From assembly GCA_029210875.1 (NCBI GenBank), contig JARGFJ010000020.1, positions 1 through 46,226 on the forward strand: a stretch of DNA of 46,226 nucleotides, written 5' to 3'. The notes under the pieces are model-generated. The model worked only from the letters and a program-made list of their open reading frames with translations. It ran no database searches and was not told where the DNA came from. Position 1 is the first letter of the stretch. Every line of letters begins with the position of its first letter. Shown piece after piece: positions 44,656 to 46,226 of the stretch. A program made the translations under genes and the position numbers. Source of the stretch: Gammaproteobacteria bacterium. Lineage in GTDB: Bacteria > Pseudomonadota > Gammaproteobacteria > Nitrosococcales > Methylophagaceae.

Positions 44656-44910
44656 ATGACTAATAAAGCACAAGAATTAGAAGTAAGAACTATCATGCAA
44701 GGACTTGAAGAGTTTGCCACGTTTATGAGCTACCAGGGCAATAGTTCTGGCTTACGGATACTTAGCGTTGAATCTGTGCAACAAGCTCAACTTTATAATA
44801 GTCAACCACATAGTGCCGATATTATTCCGCTCACCCAACGACAACACAATCCGAATCAATGCCAGACTGTTCATCGTTCACTCGTATTCCAGGATCGTCA
44901 GACGCATTAA
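44656..44910 (+). CDS. small protein of unknown function
   Basis: This 84-residue frame starts MTNKAQELEVRTIMQGLEEF and is polar and glutamine-rich, with no membrane segment or recognisable domain. A purine-rich AGG lies a few bases upstream of the ATG, and a strong plus-strand terminator follows 38 bp after the stop, supporting a real transcription unit. The 259-bp gap before it, shared with the divergent binding-protein gene, must hold both promoters, though I could not pick convincing ones. Confidence 0.5.
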   Translation: MTNKAQELEVRTIMQGLEEFATFMSYQGNSSGLRILSVESVQQAQLYNSQPHSADIIPLTQRQHNPNQCQTVHRSLVFQDRQTH

Positions 44911-44947
44911 AATAAAAAAAGCCCAGTTACACTCAAGGCATTACCCT

Positions 44948-44982
44948 AAAGTGTGGTCGAGTCAATCGGTCACACTTTTTTT
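44948..44982 (+). terminator. rho-independent terminator after the small gene
   Basis: AAAGTGTG and CACACTTT, extended inward through G-U pairs and CGA/TCG, form a 13-bp stem around GTCAA, followed by further T residues on the plus strand. It ends the transcript of the 84-residue gene and isolates it from the hip locus. Confidence 0.85.
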
Positions 44983-45123: not shown

Positions 45124-45153
45124 TAATGTTTGATATACTTTACTCAAACATTA
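45124..45153 (+). promoter_or_regulatory. hipB operator palindrome overlapping a -10
   Basis: Perfect 10-bp arms TAATGTTTGA (124-133) and TCAAACATTA (144-153) are separated by 10 bp, putting arm centres 20 bp (about two helical turns) apart. The spacer starts with TATACT, a likely -10. This is the expected layout for a HipB-type dimer repressing its own promoter. Autoregulation is inferred from this layout. Confidence 0.7.
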
Positions 45154-45157
45154 GTTT

Positions 45158-45499
45158 ATGTATGGTATATCAATTATGAGTAGCAAAAATGAACGCGGAA
45201 AGTCTCCCGTTCTCTTTCCAGTAAGGGCGCGCATTCTAAAGCAGATGGGCGAAAATATTATGCTTGCACGTAAGCGACGTAATCTCACTATGGAGATGGT
45301 GGCTGAGCGAGCCGATACAACACGCCATACCGTGTCCAATATCGAGAAGGGTAGCCCTTCTGTGGCAATTGGTCATTACCTTAATGTTCTAACTGTACTT
45401 CATCAGGAGGAAGACTTTCTCAAGATTGCCGCTGATGATGAGCTTGGAAGGAAGCTTGTTGATCTTGAGCTAAAAAACAAAAAGGTCACCACTAAATGA
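45158..45499 (+). CDS. hipB: HipB-like XRE-family antitoxin
   Basis: This 113-residue protein has a Cro/C1-type helix-turn-helix near residues 30-90 (MGENIMLARKRRNLTMEMVA, then DTTRHTVSNIEKGSP), like HipB antitoxins that bind HipA and repress the operon. The start at 45158 lies very close to the operator; an ATG at 45176 (MSSKNERGK) is an equally plausible start and neither has a clear ribosome-binding site. Its stop overlaps the hipA start as ATGA. It appears intact. Confidence 0.85.
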   Translation: MYGISIMSSKNERGKSPVLFPVRARILKQMGENIMLARKRRNLTMEMVAERADTTRHTVSNIEKGSPSVAIGHYLNVLTVLHQEEDFLKIAADDELGRKLVDLELKNKKVTTK

Positions 45500-46167
45500 A
45501 AATGATAAAGGTATATGCTGACTGGCTGGGCCTGCCCGATACGATTTTAGTGGGAGAACTTACTGTTGACGTTGTTCGCGGCAAAGAGATCTACAGATTC
45601 AGTTATGAAAATGACTGGCTTCAATCTCCCTATCGCTTAGAAATAGACCCAGAGTTATCGCTCTACAAGGGTGATCTCTTTCCCAGATCTGGCAATGACA
45701 ACTTCCGCGCCTTCCTTGATTCCGCACCGGACAGGTGGGGAAAGCTACTCATGAAGCGACGAGAAGCAATTGACGCAAAGCTTGAGGGAAGAAAAGAGCG
45801 CACACTACTTGAGTCTGACTATTTGCTTGGTGTACATGATAGCTACAGGATGGGAGGCCTTCGTTATAAGTTAGATATTGACGACCCGTTTTTAAGTGAC
45901 AGCGATGAGCTTTCAGCTCCTCATGTTACAAGCTTAAGAGAGTTAGAGCATGCAGCAAGAGTAGTTGAAGATAACAAATCCATTCCCTCTGATGAATATC
46001 TTGCAGAATACAGGAAGTGGCTAAATATGCTGATTGCTCCAGGCTCTTCTTTGGGTGGTGCAAGACCTAAAGCCTGCGTTCAGGATGATGAAGGTTTTTG
46101 GATTGCCAAGTTTCCAAGCAAGCTTGATGAATATGATGTTGGCGCATGGATGTCAACAACACTTTAA
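45496..46167 (+). pseudogene. hipA: HipA-like serine/threonine kinase toxin, 3' part lost to insertion
   Basis: The frame encodes 223 residues against about 410-440 for full HipA toxins. The N-terminal domain (LVGELTVDVVRG, AFLDSAPDRWGKLLMKR) and the start of the kinase core with the glycine- and serine-containing loop PGSSLGGARPK (182-192) are present. HipA-like sequence runs to W218 (GAW). The next codons read MSTTL then TAA, and come from inserted DNA starting near 46151. The catalytic aspartates and metal-binding motif would lie downstream and are lost, so the toxin should be inactive. Confidence 0.8.
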
Positions 46168-46226
46168 AATTGACCCCTTTTGGCTTTAAAACACCGGTTT
46201 AAATTTGACCCCCTTGAGCAGGATCT
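46151..46226. mobile_element. end of an insertion sequence (IS21-like), partial
   Basis: At the hipA break the sequence changes to TGTCAACAACAC followed by two related direct repeats, TTTAAAATTGACCCC (46163-46177) and TTTAAATTTGACCCCC (46198-46213), 35 bp apart. Terminal TG and multiple internal repeats near the end are hallmarks of IS21-family elements. No transposase gene is in the window, so the family is tentative. Confidence 0.55.

Follow-up and report, generated by a model that had tools for sequence, protein, structure and literature searches.

The 46,226-nucleotide contig analysed here (C12; the window is this whole stretch of DNA), from a gammaproteobacterium of the family Methylophagaceae, ends in a HipA-like reading frame that is cut short. 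This raises the question of what became of the toxin gene, and of how the hipBA pair came to lie at this place. In our assessment the locus was probably formed by two nested insertions, the first placing a hipBA cassette within a terminator loop and the second an IS21-family element within hipA. The features are collected in Table 1.

Table 1. Features at the right end of the window; positions are those of the window unless another contig is named.
Feature	Position	Strand	Basis
orf84, conserved neighbour; convergent with secF in relatives	44656..44910	+	relatives' loci
Bidirectional terminator, left half (A-tract and stem AAAAAAAGCCC)	44914..44924		right half on C66 beside secF
9-bp target duplication AGTTACACT	44925..44933; second copy C66:93888-93896		end comparison
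Left terminal inverted repeat of cassette, 23 bp	44934..44956	+	21/23 identical to C66:93897-93919
Terminator-like hairpin of the cassette itself	44948..44978; second copy at other cassette end, C66:94026-94056		hairpin search
Candidate HipB operator, inverted repeats TAATGTTTGA / TCAAACATTA	45124..45153		7/500 shuffles reach 10 bp
Overlapping repeat pair TTGATATAC / GTATATCAA	45130-45138 / 45165-45173		by eye
hipB, intact; alternative start 45158	45176..45499	+	frame, profile searches, homologues
hipA N-terminal piece, residues 1-218	45496..46149	+	frame and homologue comparison
Left copy of IS target 6-mer, CATGGA (right copy on C66, CATGGG)	46145..46150		5/6 match
IS21-type insertion sequence, istB-side end; contig stops inside	46151..46226	+	recurrent end, istB, 6-mers

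The hipA frame (45496-46167) encodes 223 amino acids. As the first-pass annotation had described, it is HipA-like as far as W218 (codon 46147-46149) and then switches to a foreign tail where the insertion sequence (IS) starts at 46151; the tail, MSTTL and a stop codon, is read from IS sequence. The same annotation had held hipB to be intact, and its frame is indeed whole. The HipA_C profile (PF07804) matched two places in the genome: a hipA on contig C19, and a frame of 265 aa that closes contig C66 on the right and abuts the opposite IS end. The second IS end and the remaining hipA codons, both expected beyond the contig edge, were found together there, the codons resuming at the next residue of the homologues. 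Searched separately, the N- and C-terminal pieces matched the same frame in 28/28 homologous loci, which provides the suggested comparison with uninterrupted hipBA relatives. In 16 of the 28 the N-terminal piece ends at one residue and the C-terminal piece begins at the next, so no hipA residues seem to have been lost. Stop-to-stop frames measured 402–532 aa in 27 of these loci, and the remaining one, of 261 aa, is clipped by the locus edge. The C12–C66 junction across the IS is absent from the assembly, the IS interior between them being unassembled.

The C-terminal piece on C66 contains the motifs NTDDHLRNHG and SPAFD, which we take to be catalytic, and the region around them aligns to a HipA_C protein of solved structure (best match 7ab3/7ab4, E 5e-4), presumably HipT of HipBST. 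The N-terminal piece had no match in Pfam and NCBIfam at 1e-3, and none in the PDB. Instead of a full-length HipA-family kinase the genome thus holds a gene split after residue 218, its pieces lying on C12 and C66, which makes it a broken member of the HipBA toxin-antitoxin modules. An N-terminal product without the two motifs would not be expected to act as a HipA kinase, and we infer that the active kinase is absent from this genome.

The helix-turn-helix (HTH) gene hipB lies directly upstream and overlaps the hipA start. A HipB-like frame was present in 25 of the 28 homologous loci, in one of them (L053) downstream of hipA. The operator that the first-pass annotation regarded as retained may correspond to the inverted repeats at 45124-45153, as judged from the sequence. 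In this genome HipB would persist, we infer, as an orphan that represses itself without a partner; it might also, as the first-pass annotation proposed, change regulation elsewhere. The second HipA-family gene, on C19 (L009 1140-2571), is uninterrupted and is overlapped downstream by a small HTH gene, in reverse order. Protection against related toxins had also been proposed for the orphan; it is not favoured for the C19 hipA, to whose HTH partner HipB showed no match at E 1e-4. Elsewhere, a Colwellia MAG (L037) carries, by eye, a direct repeat of about 25 bp (taaatagcagacag..cctgcaaat) before hipB and after hipA, which may mark another route of hipBA gain, and on a Vibrio breoganii plasmid (L119) a hipBA homologue (56% over the N-terminal piece) is flanked by an IS66 element on one side and a TnpB-type gene on the other.

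The flanks of the two contigs show where the pair was inserted: orf84 precedes hipB on C12, and secF lies beyond the hipA piece on C66. Of 28 relatives in the genus, 27 supplied a SecF locus. Among these, 21 have secF and orf84 as convergent neighbours with 56–194 nt between matched ends and without hipBA; in the other six orf84 is absent from the retrieved stretch. This adjacency joins C12 and C66 independently and identifies hipBA as a gain. By eye, most of 17 orf84-bearing gaps contain a single hairpin, with an A-tract on one side and a T-tract on the other. The terminator is empty in G004, the nearest relative (SecF 95%, orf84 89%), where orf84 is followed by A-tract, GCCC, AGTATAACT, GGGC and T-tract. 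Other sequence with inverted ends CCTCAGTTCTGGATAAG lies between this terminator and secF in G004, and IS-like sequence was seen in the orf84-secF gap of G020 (L091) and G009 (L101), all by eye; insertions may have arrived in this gap repeatedly.

In the window and on C66, terminator arms equal to those of G004 hold AGTTACACT on either side of a cassette of 2,099 bp (IS and one 6-mer excluded) that bears only hipB and hipA. A first reading of its ends gave a 5-bp duplication and 2,103 bp, and was replaced after comparison with the relative G001. The cassette has terminal inverted repeats and a target duplication, contains no transposase and thus has the build of a non-autonomous element; its right hairpin, on C66, overlaps the hipA stop codon. 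It would have inserted first, in the loop between the arms of the orf84/secF terminator, duplicating 9 bp. With up to three mismatches, its repeat occurred in 2/29 genus genomes, twice in this genome and three times in G001. No further copy that would offer a source of transposase was found in this genome, and the cassette was probably mobilised in trans. At up to two mismatches the repeat was found in 1/369 genomes of the class, namely this one, and viral contigs contained no exact match. Nine homologous hipBA loci out of the 28 were examined for about 500 bp to either side, and none had flanking inverted repeats exceeding the best of 50 shuffles; the cassette form is therefore unseen there.

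The relative G001, a sister species, carries nearly the same ends. On its contig C19, two repeat copies, 1-2 mismatches from the 25-bp cassette pattern, bound a 5,758-bp element that is inserted in a terminator, is flanked by a 10-bp duplication and bears a terminator-like hairpin close to either inner end. Its cargo is a restriction-methylation gene of type IIG (PADLOC 2.2e-238) accompanied by a specificity gene, and a 613-aa protein inside it is the candidate transposase. This protein matched the NCBIfam IS1 model at 2.7e-7 (30.7 bits, cut-off 100), below the score set for an IS1-family transposase, and the IS1/IS1595 Zn domain at 1.5e-5 (25.4 bits, cut-off 28); it had no match in Pfam. On G001 contig C40, which starts at this point and shows one end only, 139/140 bp are those of the window's left cassette end. 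SecF of this genome is only 76% identical to that of G001, and the near-identity of C40 fits a recent transfer. The N-terminal HipA piece had no match in G001 (88% complete).

These ends bear on whether hipBA entered the terminator by ordinary recombination, the inverted repeats being duplicated terminator sequence. Over their outer 14 bp the repeats are indeed the arms of the terminator, as that explanation would have it; however, the inner repeat, beginning CAAGGCATTACC, does not occur in the empty G004 site, and it bounds the G001 element, which has other cargo and a target duplication of its own. We consider such an origin quite improbable, and retain insertion of the cassette as a mobile unit.

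The second insertion is that of the IS. Its end from 46151 is present at 15 further places in the 2.44-Mb, 93-contig genome. The search returned 17 places including the window, 13 others being 100% identical over 74–77 bp; the further matches were C57 (95%), a partial copy at C21:1-54, and C21:29316, which is the opposite end at 71%. The opposite end accounted for 13 of 19 match rows in its own search, the remaining six being the first end type at about 70%. Ends lay no more than two bases from contig ends in 14/16 cases for the first type and 13/13 for the opposite type, and this clustering explains why the window stops at hipA. The window also starts within a repeat, a 16S rRNA gene (positions 1-62), just as it ends within the IS. 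Matches to the IS were found in 5/29 genomes including this one, the copies in sister genomes being partial or diverged.

The IS had been predicted to be of istA/istB type. An istB gene was found (PF01695, 6.1e-73) at C55:98072-98590, adjoining the same IS end type, and over 177 of 181 aa the IstB piece shares 84% identity with the ISAeme17 type; istA was not seen, PF22483 having no match in the bin, which is without most of the IS interior. Each end has two GACCCC repeats (by eye). Comparison of 16 left with 13 right ends gave five pairs with an exact 6-mer, against about 0.05 expected by chance (by arithmetic), and one with an exact 5-mer. At hipA the predicted target-site duplication holds for five of six bases, with one base mismatched (CATGGA vs CATGGG), and among the 13 right ends only the hipA one is within one mismatch of the window's 6-mer. 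Repeated ends and short target duplications, 5/6 for the hipA pair, are those of the IS21 family. The element would have inserted after HipA residue 218, later than the arrival of the cassette.

Alternatively, the break might be a rearrangement in which two IS copies recombined, the C66 piece having belonged elsewhere. C12 and C66 are unjoined in the assembly and the target 6-mer has its mismatch, both of which such an event would allow, but the residue-exact continuity with homologues and the secF/orf84 neighbourhood in 21/27 relatives' loci each place the two contig ends together, and we regard it as very improbable. That the 223-aa product represents a true short form of HipA-type protein, or a fusion with a function, is scarcely credible: the frame is open up to the stop inside the IS, but its final five residues are IS sequence present at other insertion sites, it lacks the two conserved motifs, and homologous HipA proteins of about 220 residues, named beforehand as the observation that would speak against an interruption, did not appear among the 28 loci, where no complete frame is shorter than 402 aa. 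Two successive insertions, cassette and then IS, remain our preferred account. Loss of a toxin through an IS in its gene is routine and ordinary; the outer layer, the cassette, matters more.

We turn next to relatives of the 613-aa protein. Inverted repeats accompany its plasmid relatives (25–32% identity) in Polaromonas, Acidovorax, Marinobacter and Rhizobium, and were also found beside a viral-contig relative and a more distant one in Pontibacillus. In Polaromonas the element spans 10.1 kb, and its cargo includes a Mokosh-like gene (MkoC 2.1e-157) together with a nucleotidyltransferase/HepT (MNT/HepT) pair. Nothing in the annotation table of the Acidovorax element is named as a defence gene; the elements of Marinobacter (2.0 kb) and Rhizobium (1.9 kb) contain hardly anything besides the relative of the 613-aa protein. 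Convincing repeats were absent from three loci of distant relatives (L130-L132). A scan of viral sequences with the 613-aa protein alone gave no match; with an alignment it gave two loci, one of which (L134) has a 9-bp duplication (CTATTCGAT) and fails the terminator test. Two phage records matched the protein, both distantly. Among the matches listed, relatives are mostly named 'hypothetical protein' or 'insertion element protein', or are unannotated.

Both ends were located in eight elements, a set that leaves out the Enterococcus and Staphylococcus relatives (most of the records matched), L133 and L135. Five of the eight lie within terminator arms (the window, G001 C19, Polaromonas, Acidovorax and Pontibacillus), and three outside (Marinobacter, Rhizobium and the viral contig). 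Random sites in 13 sequences satisfied the terminator definition 59 times in 20,000, giving a binomial P of 1.2e-11 for five of eight; the bias is strong and not final, because the definition was set after the first examples were known and the elements are few. At the ends used, the duplication is 9 bp in 4/8 (the window, Marinobacter, the viral contig and Pontibacillus, whose end was placed with a 9-bp duplication in view), 10 bp in G001 C19, 1 bp in Acidovorax, and none in Polaromonas and Rhizobium. Its length varies with end placement because the targets are palindromic: shifted ends give 5 or 7 bp in the window (cassette end 2 or 1 bases further out), 6, 8 or 12 bp in G001, 5, 7 or 11 bp in Pontibacillus, 6 to 10 bp in Rhizobium and at most 5 bp in Polaromonas. 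We favour nine as the preferred length.

The ends of the cassette would match those of a group that encodes an IS1-related protein, often sits in terminators and carries defence or toxin-antitoxin cargo. Our reading is that the cassette is a non-autonomous member of this terminator-targeting, defence-carrying transposon group that was later broken by the IS21-type element, with the 613-aa protein as the candidate transposase of the group on sequence grounds. A wider proposal, which we think could equally well stand or fall, is that of a broad transposon group with a large IS1-related transposase that uses terminator loops as safe sites, restores termination through its inner hairpins, and ferries defence and toxin-antitoxin genes (hipBA, type IIG, Mokosh-like and MNT/HepT) between species, partly as transposase-less cassettes. 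The locus suggests a low-cost entry of a toxin-antitoxin pair into the chromosome, through a terminator loop between convergent genes and with hairpins of its own at the ends. If the group holds, terminators are a place to seek small, unannotated defence islands.

Compared with known systems, the locus resembles HipBA type II modules in having an HTH gene that overlaps a HipA-family gene and a HipA_C domain in the C-terminal piece, and differs in that hipA is split and its N-terminal piece has no Pfam match. The IS shares with the IS21 family an ISAeme17-type IstB, GACCCC end repeats and 6-bp duplications at other copies, whereas istA is unseen in the bin and the element is known here from its ends and an istB piece. 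Mobile insertion cassettes and TIMEs consist of inverted repeats around passenger genes with no transposase, as the hipBA cassette does; their ends and target are not known to resemble those of the cassette. A 9-bp duplication is typical of IS1, and the 613-aa protein matches the IS1 model and the IS1/IS1595 Zn domain, below their cut-offs; at 613 aa, however, it contrasts with a model of 199 positions, and its elements are larger and carry cargo. Among the papers listed, no title or abstract opening described this element or an IS1-like one that targets terminators. Targeting of hairpins, including transcription terminators, by a transposon is already known: it is reported for IS1272/TnSha1 of the IS1182 family, where insertion deletes or replaces the hairpin and produces no target duplication (PMC4923244; PMC5678879). 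In contrast to IS1272/TnSha1 as described there, the hipBA cassette keeps both terminator arms and duplicates 9 bp, and its candidate transposase is IS1-like.
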